From: a virus
Reading direction: 5' to 3' (one strand)
Length of the DNA stretch: 57,906 nucleotides
Virus record (IMG/VR): IMGVR_UViG_3300032401_000578
Span: 1 to 57,906 of that record
The position numbers and the translations under genes are program-made. The notes under the pieces were generated by a model. The model saw nothing but the letters and a program-made list of their open reading frames with translations. It searched no databases and was not told where the DNA came from. This document shows positions 711 to 6,860 of the stretch, in pieces (the first letter of the stretch is position 1; each line of letters opens with the position of its first letter).

Positions 711-1528
711 CGTTCGATGACGCGGCTTCGCGTCTGGAAACGGTGGCGTGGACGTTCGCCAAAACGATGCCGAACAATCCGCACTACTGGACGCTGCGGA
801 AGGCGTGGCCCGGTGGCTCGGAGGATTTCGAGGCCGTCGTGCAGTTCATCCGGGACGCGGGGCACACAATCCGGTTCGGGCGGACCGACTACCGCTGCCT
901 GAACGTCAACGGGTGGCGGTACTGGACGATGGGTTCTCCGCTCGACCAGACGACCCTGATCAATCGGTGTCGCCTGAACACGCCTTGCCTTTACGATGAG
1001 ATCGCGCCGGTCTACGAAGAGATGCACGCGACGCCGGAAGCGGCTGCAGAAAACGTCCGGCTATTCGAGATGATCGGCTGCCGTGGCGGATCGGTGCTGG
1101 ACATCGGTTGCGGGACGGGTCTGTTTCTCGACTGTGCGGCCCCTGACGAGTACTGTGGCATCGACCCAAGCGGGAGGATGTTGGAACGGTTGGGGAAGAA
1201 GTACCCGACGGCTCGAACGATCCAGACGCCTTTGGAGTCGTTTTGGAGCGGACGCAAGTACGATCTTGTCGTGTCGCTGTTCGGGGCGGCGTCTTACGTG
1301 ACGCCGGACGCGGTCGAGCGGGCGAGGCGGTGGGTTCATCCCTACGGGCGGCTGGTGATGATGTTCTACAAGCCGGGGTACGTGCCGGTGACGCACCTTC
1401 AGTCGGGGGTCGCGGTTCCGTTCTTCGAGTACACTGGCCCCGGCGTTCCGTTTGGGAATTACGTGATTGCGGGGGGCGGGGTCAATGAAACTGTATCTGC
1501 AGAAGACGGTCTACGAAGCGGCACTTGA
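707..1528 (+). CDS. Class I SAM-dependent methyltransferase with phage-type N-terminal domain
   Basis: The 273-residue product has two parts. Residues 21-90 contain MPNNPHYWTLRK and YWTMG, which I recall as typical of phage proteins of unknown function. From about residue 95 there is a Rossmann methyltransferase with motif I LDIGCGTG at 131-138 and an acidic IDPS after strand 2. The substrate is not evident. GTG 707 is chosen as the start because it forms a GTGA overlap with the preceding stop; the frame extends upstream without a better site. The 3' end overlaps ibrA by 44 bases, so the block looks translationally coupled. Confidence 0.7.
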   Translation: MTFDDAASRLETVAWTFAKTMPNNPHYWTLRKAWPGGSEDFEAVVQFIRDAGHTIRFGRTDYRCLNVNGWRYWTMGSPLDQTTLINRCRLNTPCLYDEIAPVYEEMHATPEAAAENVRLFEMIGCRGGSVLDIGCGTGLFLDCAAPDEYCGIDPSGRMLERLGKKYPTARTIQTPLESFWSGRKYDLVVSLFGAASYVTPDAVERARRWVHPYGRLVMMFYKPGYVPVTHLQSGVAVPFFEYTGPGVPFGNYVIAGGGVNETVSAEDGLRSGT

Positions 1529-2660
1529 ACGCATCCGGTGGCTGTACGACGAGTTCGACCAAGTCTTCGTGTCGTTCTCCGGCGGGAAAGACTCGACGGT
1601 CTGCCTTCATCTGGCGTTGCAAGTGGCGGCGGAACGGGGGCGGCTCCCTTTGCCCGTGCTGTTCATCGACCAAGAGGCCGAGTGGCAGATGGCTATCGAC
1701 TACATCCGGACGGTGATGTCGGACCCGCGAGTCAAGCCGTTGTGGCTCCAAGTTCCCTTCAAGATATTCAACGCGACATCCGGGACGGACCCTTGGCTGC
1801 AATGTTGGGAGCCGCGCAAGACGTGGATCCGGGAGCGTGAGCCGGAAAGCTATCACGAGAACGTCTTCGGGACGGACCGCTTCGGCGAGATGTTCAACGC
1901 GGCGATCAATTACTTCGCAGGCGGGAAACGGGCGGCAAACATCGGCGGGATGCGGTGCGAGGAAAGCCCGTCCCGGCTCCGGGGGCTGACGCACGGGAAC
2001 ACGTACAAGGGACAAGCGTGGGGGAAGGTGCTGGATCGGAAACGGGAGCAGTTCACGTTCTACCCGATTTACGACTGGTCGCTTTCGGATGTCTGGAAGG
2101 CGATTCATGACGAGGCATGGAAGTACTGCCCGCTCTACGACTTCCAGTATCGCTACGGAATTGCGCCGCGAGACATGCGAGTCTCAAACGTGCATCACGA
2201 GACGGCTGTCAAGAATCTGTTCTATCTCCAAGAGGTGGAGCCGGAGACGTGGGAACGGATCGTCGGGCGATTGTCGGGGGTCAACACGGTTGGCAAGCTG
2301 CGGGACGATATGCTTTGCCCGAAGGAACTGCCGTTCATGTTCACTTCGTGGGCGGAGTATCGGGACTATCTGGTTGAAAATCTGGTCACGGAGGAGGCGG
2401 ACAGGGAAGACTTTCGGAAACTCTGGAAGCGGGGCGAGGGCAAGTACGATGCGGAGACGACCGAAAAGCTGCACCGGATGCAGGTCAAGGCTGTCCTCGC
2501 GAACGACCATTGGGGGGTGAAGATCGGTTCTTTCGAGAACAGTCATCAGAAGAACGTCGTGGGCGGGGTGGCGAACGACCGCTATCACGAACGCCAAGCG
2601 GCCAAACGGAAAGACCGGGAAACGACAAAGCTCTTGATCGGAAAGCGGGTGGAAGGATGA
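1485..2660 (+). CDS. ibrA: PAPS-reductase-family protein, IbrA-like
   Basis: This 391-residue protein belongs to the PP-loop (adenylyl-sulfate reductase) superfamily. Residues 32-38 read SGGKDST, the pyrophosphate-binding loop, and MRCEESPSR further on matches the IbrA/DUF3440 group. Family members are often phage-borne and paired with a ParB-like IbrB; they were first named as regulators of immunoglobulin-binding proteins in E. coli, and their chemistry is unsettled. The start at 1485 follows a G-rich site (GGGGGGCGGGG). The stop overlaps the ibrB start as ATGA. The pair next to two methyltransferases suggests nucleic-acid modification, which is inference. Confidence 0.8.
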   Translation: MKLYLQKTVYEAALERIRWLYDEFDQVFVSFSGGKDSTVCLHLALQVAAERGRLPLPVLFIDQEAEWQMAIDYIRTVMSDPRVKPLWLQVPFKIFNATSGTDPWLQCWEPRKTWIREREPESYHENVFGTDRFGEMFNAAINYFAGGKRAANIGGMRCEESPSRLRGLTHGNTYKGQAWGKVLDRKREQFTFYPIYDWSLSDVWKAIHDEAWKYCPLYDFQYRYGIAPRDMRVSNVHHETAVKNLFYLQEVEPETWERIVGRLSGVNTVGKLRDDMLCPKELPFMFTSWAEYRDYLVENLVTEEADREDFRKLWKRGEGKYDAETTEKLHRMQVKAVLANDHWGVKIGSFENSHQKNVVGGVANDRYHERQAAKRKDRETTKLLIGKRVEG

Positions 2661-3322
2661 CGTGGCAAACGGAACTAGCGGCGGCGTGCGACGCGGCCCC
2701 GGACAAGACGGCGTTCATCGCTGAGGCGAGGGAGATTCTTCACGGGTCGAGTCCGCTCAAGGCGCAACCGGTGGACATCGTGCGGTGGGTACCGATAGGG
2801 ATGGTGGACCCGAACGACTACAACCCGAACTCGGTGGCGAAGTCGGAGATGAAGCTGCTCTACACGTCGATTCTGCACGACGGCTACACGCAGCCGATTG
2901 TCACGATCCAAAACCCGGACACGGGACGATTCTGCATCGTAGACGGATTTCACCGGTACTTCACAGCGTTCTCGAATCCGGACATTCTGGCCCGAAACCT
3001 CGGACGGGTTCCGGTCGTGGTGATTGCGAAGGAAATCAACGACCGGATGGCTTCGACGGTTCGGCACAATCGGGCGAGGGGGAAACACTCGATTACAGGG
3101 ATGGCGTCGATGGTGTTCACGATGCTGGAGAACGGCTGGGAAGACGCGGCAATCTGCAATGAACTCGGGATGGAGCCGGAGGAACTACTCAAGCTGAAAC
3201 ACGTTACCGGATTTTCAAAGCTGTTCGCGAACGTGGAGTACCGGAGAGCGTGGGTCACGGATCAACAGGTAGCAATCCGCAAGAAGCACGAAAGGGAGGT
3301 CGCGGCTGGAACTCTGGGGTGA
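2657..3322 (+). CDS. ibrB: ParB-like IbrB protein
   Basis: This 221-residue ParB-domain protein is the partner of IbrA. DPNDYNPN (51-58) and IVDGFHRY (94-101) are the ParB-like boxes. The second half is helical and rich in basic residues, with a likely helix-turn-helix around NELGMEPEELLKLK. The ATG overlaps the ibrA stop by 4 bases (ATGA), which fixes the start; GGAAGG lies just upstream. It is the last gene of the modification-like block before the terminase genes, with a 63-base gap after it. Its molecular function is not established. Confidence 0.75.
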   Translation: MTWQTELAAACDAAPDKTAFIAEAREILHGSSPLKAQPVDIVRWVPIGMVDPNDYNPNSVAKSEMKLLYTSILHDGYTQPIVTIQNPDTGRFCIVDGFHRYFTAFSNPDILARNLGRVPVVVIAKEINDRMASTVRHNRARGKHSITGMASMVFTMLENGWEDAAICNELGMEPEELLKLKHVTGFSKLFANVEYRRAWVTDQQVAIRKKHEREVAAGTLG

Positions 3323-3385: not shown

Positions 3386-4153
3386 ATGGCGGAAGCCGAG
3401 GCTGAGAAACCCAAGGGGAAACGTGGGCGGAAACCGGGGAGGCAACCCGGAAAAGTCTACTGTCATGCAAACGGCAACACGTGCGGGCGGTTCCCGGCGA
3501 AGGGGCGAACGACGTGCAAGGCTCACGGTGGTGGAGCCAAGGTCGGTTCGGACTCGCCTTCGTACAAGGGGAAGAACTTCTCCCGTCACATGCCGAAACG
3601 GTTGGGGCAACTCTTCGATGAAGCGATGCTCGACCCGGACTTCCTGAACCAGCGGCGGCGGATCGCGCAGATGTCGGCCCGGTGCGAAGAGCTGTGGGTT
3701 CGTATCTCGGCGGAGGAGCGGGCGGCCAATTGGGCGGAGGCCAAGAAGGTCTGGTCAGCCATGTGGGCGGCGAACGCGGCTTACTCGGTGGCCAGCAAGG
3801 CTGGGGACGCGGCGGAGGTGTCGCGGCAAGCCGGGGTCATGGCGGACACGAAGGCGGAGCTGGAGACGATGCTCGGCGTCGGAGCCGGGGAGCAGTTCGC
3901 GTGGGAAGAGTTCCGGAAGGCGTTGGACACGACGCGGCGACTGATTGAGTCGGAGCGGCGTCGCGAGGTAGAGTCGCAACAGGTGATCTCGATGAGTCTT
4001 GTCACGATGCTGGTGGACCGGCTGGCCGATATTGTGAGGCGAAATGTCACGAACAAGGCTGAACTTCGGACAATCTCGGTCGAGTTCACTCGGGAACTTG
4101 GTCAGCAGGTTGGGACTCAGATTGATGCCGGAGTTGGAGCCGGAGCCGGGTGA
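3386..4153 (+). CDS. terS: Putative small terminase subunit
   Basis: The 255-residue product sits directly upstream of and overlaps the large terminase, the usual place for the small subunit. The N-terminus is very basic. Residues around 40-65 contain CKAHGGGAKVG followed by SPSYKGKNFS, a Cys/His-rich pattern I know from phage proteins at this position. The rest is predicted helical. GGAG before ATG 3386 supports the start. The small subunit recognises DNA for packaging, but sequence conservation is poor, so the call rests mainly on context. The C-terminus is a Gly/Ala tail that overlaps terL by 29 bases. Confidence 0.55.
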   Translation: MAEAEAEKPKGKRGRKPGRQPGKVYCHANGNTCGRFPAKGRTTCKAHGGGAKVGSDSPSYKGKNFSRHMPKRLGQLFDEAMLDPDFLNQRRRIAQMSARCEELWVRISAEERAANWAEAKKVWSAMWAANAAYSVASKAGDAAEVSRQAGVMADTKAELETMLGVGAGEQFAWEEFRKALDTTRRLIESERRREVESQQVISMSLVTMLVDRLADIVRRNVTNKAELRTISVEFTRELGQQVGTQIDAGVGAGAG

Positions 4154-6455
4154 CGAGGCGGAGCCGACGGACGACGCGGTAGACTTCGAGGATCTCTACC
4201 CGGCTCAACCCGGCCCGCAGCGGATTTTCCGGAAGTCGCGGGCGGACATCGCCATCTACGGCGGGGCGGCTGGCGGCGGGAAGTCGTGGTCGCTGCTGAC
4301 GGAACCGCTGCAACACGTGACGAACGGAAACTTCGGGGCCGTGATCTTCCGGCGGACAAACCCGGAGATCACGAACGAAGGCGGGTTGTGGGATGAGTCC
4401 GTCAAGCTGTACCCGCTTCTACAGGCTGAACAGGCGGGGCATTCGTGGCGGTTCGACTCCGGGGCGTCAATCACGTTCGGAGCGATCCAGCTCGAAAAGG
4501 ACGTCTTTAAATGGAAGTCGTCGCAAATCTGTCTCATGTGCGTCGCAAGCGGAACGCCGATTGTGATGGCAGATGGGAGTCGGGTGGCGGTCGATGACGT
4601 GCAGGAGGGCGACTACGTGATGACTCTGGCGGGGCCGAGAAGAATCACAAGAAAGCACGACCCACGAATAGCGAAATGCGTCACGGCGACGATTGTGTCA
4701 GAAACGGGTGACGTCGTCGGATCGCAAACGCATCCCGAAGACCATCCTATTTTGACGGACAGGGGATGGGAGTCGTTCGCTTCGATTGCCAGACAATCCC
4801 GATCCGCTCGCAAACCGACTTCGCGACCTGCGAAGAGATGCCGGTCGCGGCGGCAAAGTCGCGATACCCGATTGACGGGTCAGAAGCGGCGACCCGGACG
4901 GCGGACTCCACTTCTGGAGAGTGCGGGTTGCAAGGGCGTCTGCGTGTCGTCAGCAGATGCGGGAAGCGGTTCCGTAAGGTCTGGTGGTGGACTCCGAGCA
5001 GCGTGGCGGCCTCAAGCGTGGAGCGTCCAAGTAGTGCTGCACGAACGGACTCTTCTGGAAGATTCACGGCATGGTCATCTTCAAATCCGTGAAGATTCTT
5101 GTGGTCAACATCCGTCATCAACTGGAGGTTGCTCGGGTCATTGTTTTGGCGATTCCGGTCAATGTGATGAACAACCTCAAGCCCGCTTAGGTAACGGCCG
5201 AGAACTTTTTCCATCACAAGCCGATGTTGGCGGACGAAACCCCGTTTTGTCACGGCCGGGTGGTGTGGGGCGTATTCGAGAACATACCCAAAAGCGTCGA
5301 TTTGAGTTCGACCACCCATACACGAAGGAACGACGCTTGGCTTCGGAGGACGTCCAGCTTTGTTCATGCGAATTGACTCCAGTTGGGGAACGGACGGTAT
5401 TTGACCTGACAATCGAGGGCGAAAACCATTATGTGAGTTCGTTCGGTTTCGTCAATCAAAATTGTTTCGACGAATTGACATCGTTCACGGAGAAGCAATT
5501 CTGGTACATGCTGAGCCGGAACCGGTCAACGTGCGGCATCAAGCCCTACGTCCGGGCAACGACGAACCCGGACGCGGACTCTTGGGTCGCGACGCTCGTG
5601 GCGTGGTGGGTCGACGAAGAGACTGGCAATCCGATCCCGGAGCGGGCTGGCGTGCTCAGATGGTTTGTCCGGGTGGACGACGTCTTGGTGTGGGGCGACT
5701 CGGCCGACGAACTGCGGCGGCGGCATCCGGGATCGTTCCCGAAATCGTTCACGTTCATCCCGGCGAAGCTGGAGGACAATCCGGCCCTTGAGCGGCTCGA
5801 CCCCGGCTACCGGGCGAATCTGATGGCGTTGCCAACGGTCGAACGGATGCGGCTCCTCGGGGGAAACTGGAAGGTCCGGCTGACGGGCGGCATGTTCTTC
5901 CGGGCGGGAAGTATCGGCGTGCTGGATTGGGAGCCGACGGCGACGCATATCGTGAGGGGCTGGGACTTGGCGGCGTTGGAAGGGAGCGGCGACTGGACGG
6001 CCGGTCTCAAGATGGGAGTTCAAGGGAACGGCCGGTACGTGATTCTCGACCTGATCGCGGGGCAGTGGGAAACGGGCGGCCGTGATGCGAGGATCAAACA
6101 GGCGGCGGACATGGACGGGATTAGCGTGCATCAACGGCTGCCGCAAGATCCGGGGCAGGCCGGGAAGTCGCAGGTTGCCCACTTCGCCCGGATGCTGAAT
6201 GGCTGCAATTGGTCGAGCGGCCCGGTGATCGGAAACAAGGCGACGCGGGCGACGCGGTTCGCGGCGGCTGTCAATTCGGGGCAAGTGGACATGGTGAGAG
6301 CCGACTGGAACAAGCGGCTGCTCGACCGGCTCGACCGGTTCCCGGACTCGTCCGTACCCGACGACGAGGTGGACGCTTGCGCCGACGCCTTCAACACGAT
6401 TCTCGACGGGTGCTGGATCTCGGACGAAACGGAAGTGTCGTCAGTGTCGGTGTAA
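4125..6455 (+). CDS. terL: Large terminase subunit (ATPase-nuclease) interrupted by an intein
   Basis: This is the 776-residue precursor of the packaging motor. Walker A GGAAGGGKS is at residues 46-54. Walker B is split: CLM lies before the intein and CFDELTSF after it, so spliced protein reads ICLMCFDEL. Further on are MLSRNRS and the RNase H-like nuclease, with an acidic residue in RGWDLA (Asp 614 of the precursor) and another in DDEVDACADAF (near 750). The intein occupies 4539-5462. ATG 4125 is preferred over an in-frame ATG at 4044 because only a short overlap with the small subunit is then needed and the family does not carry the extra residues. Activity requires splicing, since the intein breaks the ATPase core. 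Confidence 0.92.
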   Translation: MPELEPEPGDEAEPTDDAVDFEDLYPAQPGPQRIFRKSRADIAIYGGAAGGGKSWSLLTEPLQHVTNGNFGAVIFRRTNPEITNEGGLWDESVKLYPLLQAEQAGHSWRFDSGASITFGAIQLEKDVFKWKSSQICLMCVASGTPIVMADGSRVAVDDVQEGDYVMTLAGPRRITRKHDPRIAKCVTATIVSETGDVVGSQTHPEDHPILTDRGWESFASIARQSRSARKPTSRPAKRCRSRRQSRDTRLTGQKRRPGRRTPLLESAGCKGVCVSSADAGSGSVRSGGGLRAAWRPQAWSVQVVLHERTLLEDSRHGHLQIREDSCGQHPSSTGGCSGHCFGDSGQCDEQPQARLGNGRELFPSQADVGGRNPVLSRPGGVGRIREHTQKRRFEFDHPYTKERRLASEDVQLCSCELTPVGERTVFDLTIEGENHYVSSFGFVNQNCFDELTSFTEKQFWYMLSRNRSTCGIKPYVRATTNPDADSWVATLVAWWVDEETGNPIPERAGVLRWFVRVDDVLVWGDSADELRRRHPGSFPKSFTFIPAKLEDNPALERLDPGYRANLMALPTVERMRLLGGNWKVRLTGGMFFRAGSIGVLDWEPTATHIVRGWDLAALEGSGDWTAGLKMGVQGNGRYVILDLIAGQWETGGRDARIKQAADMDGISVHQRLPQDPGQAGKSQVAHFARMLNGCNWSSGPVIGNKATRATRFAAAVNSGQVDMVRADWNKRLLDRLDRFPDSSVPDDEVDACADAFNTILDGCWISDETEVSSVSV
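4539..5462 (+). other. Intein in terminase Walker B motif
   Basis: A 308-residue in-frame insertion begins with Cys and block A (CVASGTPIVMADG, then QEGDYVM). Block B follows (THPEDHPILTDRGW). It ends with blocks F/G (VFDLTIEGENHYV, then FGFVNQN) before a Cys at the +1 extein position. The usual penultimate His is Gln here, a known but uncommon variant. No LAGLIDADG or HNH motif is present in this frame. The roughly 200 residues between the splicing blocks are Arg-rich and low in recognisable structure, because that DNA codes for an HNH endonuclease on the other strand. Both boundaries are set by alignment of terminase motifs on each side. Confidence 0.9.
4747..5367 (-). CDS. HNH homing endonuclease, antisense within the terminase intein
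   Basis: This 206-residue protein is encoded opposite to terL. It has a classical HNH_3 domain: GYVLEYAPHHP (27-37), QHRLVME (47-53), VVHHIDRN (65-72), NLQLMT (80-85) and HKNLHG (89-94). Two helix-turn-helix-like segments follow (STLEAATLLGVHHQTLRNRF at 116-135 and FAAATGISSQVAK at 171-183), probably giving site recognition. On the minus strand GGAG lies 9 bases before the ATG at 5367; an ATG 45 bases further upstream would run into the C-terminal splicing block. The last codons overlap the DNA for intein block B. It is the only gene I support on this strand, and is presumed to cut intein-less terL alleles and spread the element. Confidence 0.88.
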   Translation of the reverse strand: MNKAGRPPKPSVVPSCMGGRTQIDAFGYVLEYAPHHPAVTKRGFVRQHRLVMEKVLGRYLSGLEVVHHIDRNRQNNDPSNLQLMTDVDHKNLHGFEDDHAVNLPEESVRAALLGRSTLEAATLLGVHHQTLRNRFPHLLTTRRRPCNPHSPEVESAVRVAASDPSIGYRDFAAATGISSQVAKSVCERIGIVWQSKRTTPIPCPSK

Positions 6456-6523
6456 TCCCTTTGGTCGCGTGTGTCGTTGTGCGGTCGGTGTCGGATCTGC
6501 AAACGAACAACGAAGGGTTGGAA

Positions 6524-6811
6524 ATGCCAAGGCGAGGCGAGCATACATTCGAGAACACGGAAACCGGGCGGCCGGTCAGTCGGTCTTCGGAAGAGTTGTT
6601 GGAGTTGGTGAGGATCGGAGCCGGGTTGAGGATCTGCGAGATTCACACGCTCGCAGTGGCGTCCGGCGAGGACGTGATGACGCGGCAACAGATGAACAAG
6701 ATTGAGGCGTCGGCACTCCGGAAGTTCCGTGAGGCGTTCGAGGGGCTGGACTTCACTCCGGAGCCAAGGCGGCACGGCAAGCGGGGGCGGACTGCCTGTC
6801 AGATCTCGTGA
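6524..6811 (+). CDS. Small protein with sigma-70 region 4-like helix
   Basis: The 95-residue product is of unknown function. Residues 52-75 (VMTRQQMNKIEASALRKFRE) resemble the recognition helix end of sigma-70 region 4, where VTRERVRQIEAKALRKLR is typical. Only this half is recognisable, so it may be an HTH transcription regulator or a chance match. AGGG before ATG 6524 supports the start; the same frame is open far upstream inside terL but that part looks like shadow coding. It lies between terminase and portal, a common site for small DNA-binding phage proteins. Confidence 0.5.
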   Translation: MPRRGEHTFENTETGRPVSRSSEELLELVRIGAGLRICEIHTLAVASGEDVMTRQQMNKIEASALRKFREAFEGLDFTPEPRRHGKRGRTACQIS

Positions 6812-6831
6812 GCCGGGCGAGTCCGTCCGTC

Positions 6832-6860
6832 TTGACGTGAACGGGCGGCCGGAATAGCGT
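6832..6860 (+). promoter_or_regulatory. Possible sigma-70-like promoter before portal
   Basis: TTGACG at 6832-6837 is followed after 17 bases by TAGCGT at 6855-6860. The -35 is good and the -10 is weak. It lies between the sigma-like gene and the portal gene. Confidence 0.3.

Follow-up and report, generated by a model that had tools for sequence, protein, structure and literature searches.

We analyzed a 57,906-nucleotide stretch of viral DNA (positions 1 to 57,906 of IMG/VR virus record IMGVR_UViG_3300032401_000578, referred to here as the window) in which a terminase large-subunit gene carries an intein, and in which the strand opposite that intein encodes an HNH protein with helix-turn-helix (HTH) segments. 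An earlier reading of the sequence alone (the original prediction) had proposed this arrangement. All of the features that it named are present where it placed them, and its core interpretation, namely a terminase intein with an antisense HNH gene and selection on both strands, is supported. The locus contains the following features.

4044-6455, plus strand: terminase large-subunit gene, a single open frame of 803 codons (list of open reading frames [ORFs])
4044-4538, plus strand: terminase N-extein, with Walker A motif GGAAGGGKS and C-terminal end ...QICLM (PHROG 979, Pfam Terminase_6N, tblastn)
4539-5462, plus strand: intein of 308 amino acids, Cys1 to Asn308, followed by Cys+1 (AlphaFold2 Hint fold, Foldseek, PDB profile match)
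4539-4562, plus strand: splicing block A, CVASGTPI (alignment of related inteins)
4728-4757, plus strand: splicing block B, THPEDHPILT, its 3' end overlapped by the HNH stop (4747-4757)
4836-5288, plus strand: sense linker, predicted to be mostly disordered, without a sense-strand domain
5313-5336, plus strand: conserved sense motif HPYT(KERR), with HPYT at 5313-5324, opposite the HNH N-terminus
5397-5432, plus strand: splicing block F, VFDLTIEGENHY; its HY codons lie opposite the -10 element
5442-5462, plus strand: splicing block G, FGFVNQN; its VN codons lie opposite the -35 element
5463-6455, plus strand: terminase C-extein with Walker B motif and nuclease domain (Pfam Terminase_6N/6C, TIGR01630, tblastn)
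4747-5367, minus strand: HNH_3 plus HTH gene, 206 amino acids, ATG at 5367 and stop at 4749-4747 (Pfam HNH_3, E = 2.9e-11)
5119-5175, minus strand: HNH active-site segment, VVHHIDRNRQNNDPSNLQL (alignment of relatives)
4951-5028, minus strand: HTH segment 1, GRSTLEAATLLGVHHQTLRNRFPHLL (alignment, AlphaFold2 model, HTH family matches)
4789-4872, minus strand: HTH segment 2, IGYRDFAAATGISSQVAKSVCERIGIVW (alignment, AlphaFold2 model)
5377-5380, minus strand: Shine-Dalgarno-like site GGAG, 9 nt upstream of the HNH ATG
5428-5455, minus strand: putative sigma-70-like promoter TTGACG-16-CATAAT, inside blocks F/G and ~60 nt upstream of the HNH ATG

Both sides of the insert matched phage terminase profiles (Pfam Terminase_6N and 6C; PHROG 979, E = 1e-135), and the insert lies directly ahead of the Walker B FDE. 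Using tblastn, we found 42 related terminases (L031-L072) that are free of the intein at exactly the same point. One of these empty sites, L031, shares ~87% DNA identity with the window from position 5469 onward (5469-6848). Upstream of the insertion site, only 71 bp of the two sequences aligned above the blastn threshold, and the N-exteins share ~49% protein identity. Such a sharp mosaic boundary fits a recent exchange through homing or recombination, and could also have other causes, such as an assembly chimera. With one open frame spanning 4044-6455, a split intein in a fractured gene was rejected, as was an RNA intron (e.g., a group I intron with an antisense homing endonuclease gene), for which there was no Rfam match in the window.

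The insert has the terminal residues of an intein (Cys or Ser first, Asn or Gln last, and Cys, Ser, or Thr at +1), and its relatives share them, with a few ending in Gln. We modeled the intein with AlphaFold2 using an alignment of 18 related inteins. Confidence (predicted local distance difference test [pLDDT]) was ~90 for residues 1-90 and 255-308, such that both Hint halves are complete, and mostly <50 over the linker (residues ~100-250). Foldseek matches of the model were themselves inteins (PI-SceI, Mtu RecA, Ssp DnaB, and gp41-1), with a template modeling score of up to 0.78, normalized by target, for Mtu RecA. By sequence, a PDB profile search with the intein profile found PI-SceI at 1.5e-6. 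Pfam Hint-type matches of the window intein fell below the gathering cutoff, and relatives inserted at the P-loop pass Intein_splicing. As originally predicted, N- and C-terminal splicing blocks are present (A, B, F, and G), and searches of Pfam, NCBIfam, and PHROG returned no endonuclease match for the plus-frame linker. Without a sense-frame endonuclease between blocks B and F, and with a disordered linker, a full-length intein carrying an in-frame endonuclease was rejected.

The endonuclease-like protein lies on the other strand. The 206-residue HNH_3 protein, its HTH segments, and its GGAG site were just as first described, as was the overlap of its last codons with block B; we add that its N-terminal codons face HPYT. 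Residues H67, H68, N76, N80, and H89 were invariant in 19 relatives, all of which (19/19) contain Pfam HNH_3 together with assorted HTH families. An AlphaFold2 model of the HNH protein (pLDDT of 88) placed helices at the HTH modules, and its best PDB match was the HNH homing endonuclease I-HmuI (Foldseek E = 0.035, probability of 0.89). Judging from the catalytic residues and HTH modules, the protein is a putative homing endonuclease.

The original prediction had treated the locus as a single case. The layout is real, but it is widespread rather than a one-off: we found it in 126 loci, most of them metagenomic, which form 79, 74, and 69 clusters at 98%, 90%, and 70% HNH identity, respectively. 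Class 1 inteins, including that of the window, occupy the terminase Walker B site. Class 2 inteins occupy the terminase P-loop (Walker A) and also the P-loop of a strawberry-notch-type helicase (L102 and L225), and their HNH proteins have the reverse domain order, with HTH first and HNH last. In a tree of the HNH core (75 columns), the Walker B and P-loop types cluster. The relative phase of the two frames is identical in all 126 loci, with HNH position 1 facing sense position 1 and the HNH wobble base facing sense position 2. That shared phase may reflect common descent of the classes or a lower cost of this particular phase.

The layout emerged irrespective of which strand was searched. A scan with the HNH protein only returned eight loci with full-length matches, and in 8/8 the N- and C-terminal halves of an intein flanked the HNH gene on the opposite strand. 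The sense frame of these loci was open through the entire intein, though other frames held 10 to 30 stops. An alignment-based scan extended the layout to ~30 distinct loci. Two further scans used the sense intein alone and were hence blind to HNH; antisense HNH genes were present in 51/56 of the class 1 loci and 24/32 of the class 2 loci that they recovered. The remainder were mostly mini-inteins of ~140 to 180 amino acids, plus two further inteins, the middle of one being LAGLIDADG-like. When the full 308-residue intein was searched against isolated phages, there was no match, because the linker is not conserved.

Nevertheless, eight isolated phages carry an antisense-HNH intein: the Pectobacterium phage Ymer group (Ymer, Abuela, Sabo, Koroua, Amona, Pappous, and Taid) and Dickeya phage Setonix. 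Pectobacterium phage Ymer (OP748252.2) has the class 2 form, with an intein of 288 residues. Its terminase is annotated as a 754-residue "hypothetical protein" (XBW68187.1), and the antisense HNH ORF opposite is unannotated. The same was true of the annotated records that we inspected among the eight phages, where the host gene is a "hypothetical protein" and no HNH gene is called. Standard annotation therefore misses such genes. A paper on the genus of Ymer mentions neither the intein nor the HNH gene. No intein interrupts the terminase of Escherichia phage KW1E_UTAR, a relative of the Ymer group whose recorded host is E. coli BL21(DE3), or the terminases of many Klebsiella phages.

Some terminase genes contain more than one intein. 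In L088 (6344 to 1968, minus strand), a single large-subunit gene apparently has four: Walker A is occupied by a mini-intein, Walker B by an antisense-HNH intein, and farther downstream one Hint insert follows GGSGH and another follows AEDH. Two-intein terminases occur in L206 (1384-4965, plus strand; a contig shared with L001) and L208 (1459-4599, plus strand). Both combine a LAGLIDADG-like sense intein at Walker A with a Walker B intein, which has an antisense HNH gene in L206/L001 and is a mini-intein in L208. In the terminase of L120 (1269-4862, minus strand), the P-loop is the site of an antisense-HNH intein, and another Hint intein lies near the C-terminus (Pfam Intein_splicing, 841-1061).

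An obvious concern is that the antisense frame could be a chance or relic ORF, i.e., a dead HNH gene opposite a real intein linker in GC-rich DNA. Antisense frames in such DNA are often open, and the HNH gene is partly deleted in a few loci (L177 and L179). Yet the layout is shared by AT-rich loci (L078, GC content of 0.39; L106, GC content of 0.35) whose remaining frames all contain many stops. Its recurrence in 74 lineages (90% HNH identity), AT-rich ones included, excludes chance as the source of the layout. The active site is invariant, and substitution patterns refute a dead gene as a general account. In the exteins of Ymer and Taid, substitutions at sense positions 1/2/3 numbered 11/4/143. 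In the overlap, the excess moved to sense position 2 (2/14/3 for Koroua and Sabo; 5/16/7 for Koroua and Taid), which is the HNH wobble base, and the HNH frame is therefore under selection. Across 20 independent pairs, HNH positions 1/2/3 differed 1058/976/1924 times, with wobble differences outnumbering those at position 2 in 20/20. We consider a chance or relic frame extremely improbable.

Selection on the opposite frame was evident from what the HNH genes avoid. Across the 7262 codons of 31 antisense HNH genes, we counted 0 sense stops in the host phase compared with ~200 expected, whether the expectation came from synonymous shuffling or from contig codon usage; in 30 free-standing HNH genes, 258 stops were observed against 282 expected. 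In this phase, a sense stop is unavoidable wherever Ile, Met, Thr, Asn, or Lys comes directly after Phe. These dipeptides were absent from 74 antisense HNH genes (0 versus 67.4 expected) and near expectation in the controls (35 versus 38.6). Because both stops and dipeptides are avoided, the HNH protein sequence itself is constrained by the sense frame. GC-driven openness was rejected on the basis of the AT-rich loci and of the synonymous-recoding and dipeptide tests with free-HNH controls.

These results also bear on whether the sense frame is translated through at all. If the intervening segment were removed at the RNA level, or the terminase made in two pieces, openness could be a product of antisense constraint only. 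Nothing speaks directly for this scenario, which has a parallel in the freestanding endonucleases known between split-intein halves. It is hard to reconcile with the lack of an Rfam intron, with two complete Hint halves, and with 0 sense stops in 126 loci, given that HNH codon and residue choice avoids such stops when compared to free HNH controls. Antisense constraint alone cannot explain an open sense frame that the HNH gene actively preserves by avoiding stops, and we regard the scenario as very improbable. Instead, codon statistics, relatives, and structure predictions together indicate that both frames are under selection, consistent with the original claim that one stretch is selected on both strands.

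Two patterns that would have told against this claim did not appear. The linker is disordered rather than a conserved sense-strand domain, it varies most at sense codon position 2, and its residues are free to change; the HNH frame, rather than being broken in close relatives, is intact in 126 loci. The codon-position comparison thus gave a wobble excess for HNH in the overlap and a sense position 3 excess in the extein. HPYT is near-invariant in class 1 sense inteins, just ahead of the C-terminal Hint half, and belongs to the sense intein, since it persists in mini-inteins without any HNH gene (L208 and L210). Facing it, class 1 HNH proteins have Cys/Tyr where P-loop-class relatives have Trp (W-x-GG), which suggests that HPYT forced a change in the HNH protein.

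We then considered how the antisense gene might be expressed. Among the lineages, 43% have a Shine-Dalgarno core ahead of the first HNH ATG, compared with 7% of background ATGs, an enrichment that also argues against a relic ORF. When 2 kb surrounding the intein were scanned for promoters, the site inside blocks F/G was the only one recovered (0.4 expected in shuffled sequences). At the same register in 49 class 1 lineages, the mean score was 9.18 of 12, compared to 6.0 to 6.4 in neighboring regions and 6.9 on the sense strand. Walker B-site inteins thus appear to carry an embedded putative promoter for the HNH gene. Alternatively, the match may be an inevitable by-product of the conserved HY...VN residues, with HNH transcribed by read-through from elsewhere. 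The synonymous null already reaches 8.69 of 12, and P-loop inteins show only a marginal signal, both as this alternative would have it. Against it, the codons in use raise the score above the synonymous null (z = 3.8 with ORF codon usage; z = 5.6 with extein-only usage), the sense strand and neighboring regions show nothing comparable, and eight loci score at least 11 of 12 where 2.6 are expected, with a perfect TTGACA-16-TATAAT in L089, L198, and L204. A by-product is therefore, in our view, unlikely, while being a possibility of some weight. Taken together, the promoter-like and Shine-Dalgarno signals support independent antisense expression, short of proof.

From these observations we propose that the element is a mobile intein with an antisense homing endonuclease gene, expressed from a promoter that lies within a splicing motif, a reading to which we assign a probability of roughly 0.87. 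The terminase would be translated through the disordered linker, after which the Hint domain would splice the intein out; splicing is expected from the fold, the selection for an open frame, and the essential role of terminase as the packaging enzyme. The HNH gene would be transcribed from its own promoter in the complement of blocks F/G, with a predicted start near 5421, and translated from its own Shine-Dalgarno site, such that its expression would be uncoupled from that of the host gene. During mixed infection, HNH could cut the Walker B site of terminase genes that have no intein, and repair would then copy in the intein together with the backward HNH gene. Decay of HNH would leave mini-inteins. 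Homing is suggested by the HNH family, the conserved active site, and the patchy distribution, which includes the empty sites in L031-L072 and in Escherichia/Klebsiella relatives of Ymer as well as the mini-inteins that lack HNH.

Several points weigh against parts of this proposal. The case for homing draws on distribution and family, and the Foldseek backing for I-HmuI is modest. The conserved HY...VN residues largely force the promoter score (null mean of 8.69 of the observed 9.18), and the promoter signal is strong for Walker B-site inteins only, being marginal in class 2 (P = 0.03). There is also the broader idea of a class of bidirectional inteins, in which the C-terminal catalytic motif (HY...VN) would, by way of codon choice, double as a sigma-70 promoter for the antisense homing endonuclease gene, and in which one segment would encode a splicing active site, a promoter, a ribosome-binding site, and two overlapping proteins; toward it we are cautiously favorable rather than confident. 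If it is true, the timing of the endonuclease would be decoupled from the late terminase gene.

In some phages, free HNH proteins beside terminases help packaging. Most of the antisense cases sit in terminase genes, and the HNH protein could accordingly be a packaging accessory that aids terminase instead of a homing endonuclease. We judge this highly improbable. The protein is of the HNH_3 plus HTH type, is structurally nearest to I-HmuI, and also occurs inside the strawberry-notch helicase intein. Furthermore, HNH tracks the intein: in the DNA examined, there was no HNH match beside the uninterrupted L031-L072 terminases, and there are mini-inteins without HNH. As for the origin of the mobile intein with its antisense endonuclease, it is plausible that an HNH gene entered a mini-intein in reverse, and HNH-less mini-inteins occupy the same sites.

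Inteins are understood as sense-strand fusions of splicing and endonuclease domains. The element described here resembles canonical full-length inteins (the PI-SceI type with LAGLIDADG, or those with in-frame HNH) in its Hint domain, in having endonuclease coding between blocks B and F, in its insertion into an ATPase active-site motif, and in its sporadic distribution. It differs in that the endonuclease is separate and on the opposite strand, the linker is a disordered filler, and there are independent expression signals. An intein with HNH in frame has been described (Dalgaard 1997, as cited in PMC5050341). Mycobacteriophage TerL inteins occupy seven insertion sites, and both splicing and endonuclease activity have been demonstrated (PMC5050341). 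They likewise use the ATPase domain of a phage terminase as host, whereas no HNH or antisense arrangement is reported in that paper. ShiLan-type insertions in phage methylases contain a hidden HNH gene on the same strand in the third frame, and no splicing domain was found in them (PMC11855218). As in our case, the HNH gene uses a second frame of an insert that is open in the host frame, and the HNH cores are related (ShiLan was matched in our searches). Here, however, the HNH gene is on the minus strand and the insert is a true intein with a Hint fold, on which grounds a ShiLan-type insertion was rejected.

Antisense homing endonuclease genes with their own promoter have been described in nuclear group I introns of Didymium (I-DsqI and I-DirI; PMC9548176). 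They share with the intein a location on the strand opposite the host gene within a splicing element, along with an own promoter, which in our case is putative. In contrast, they reside in an RNA intron whose host strand is free of coding constraint. Because the host strand must also code for protein in the intein, both strands are constrained. Fractured genes, in which split inteins come with a freestanding endonuclease, were reportedly described by Dassa et al. in 2009. There, too, the endonuclease is separate from the splicing protein, but the host gene is broken in two, whereas here it is continuous and the endonuclease is antisense. We regard the element as a variant of the mobile intein and no new kind of element. 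In agreement with the original prediction, which knew of no antisense case in an intein, the open-access literature that we searched held no protein-splicing element with an antisense endonuclease; subscription journals and bioRxiv were mostly uncovered, making this novelty provisional.

In dozens of phage lineages, isolates included, an intein has its endonuclease encoded separately on the antisense strand, and the main constraint on the linker is that it lack stops. These loci form an extensive natural collection of genes that overlap in antisense, in which selection can be measured on both strands, and they point to a new way in which a selfish nuclease could be expressed independently of its host gene. 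A model is available in the intein-bearing Pectobacterium phages and in the relative without an intein, for which E. coli BL21(DE3) is the recorded host.

Other candidate isolated phages have a free-standing HNH gene in sense orientation and were rejected as antisense carriers: Rhodococcus phage Shagrat, Pseudanabaena Pan2, Streptococcus Javan74, ctXG6705, SirSheldon, and Vibrio 1.030.O. In Shagrat (L145, OQ938576.1), the related gene (2501-2746) lies directly upstream of the annotated terminase start; it is possibly an intron or free-standing relative, and the gene models there look fragmented. A bacterial genome, that of Pseudorhizobium pelagicum (L144, JOKI01000020.1), contains a relic at 4001-4390 that matches residues 96-197 of the window HNH, its HTH half, at 53% identity, and the opposite strand there has a block-B-like fragment, HPVGRRLLTGQGW. 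At this locus, the nuclease half and the intein ends were not found. The relic may hint at an alphaproteobacterial host range. Finally, upstream of the terminase in the window (1467-3322, plus strand), a PAPS-reductase/DUF3440 gene is adjacent to a ParB_N-like gene, a pair that we take to resemble the IbrA/IbrB type.

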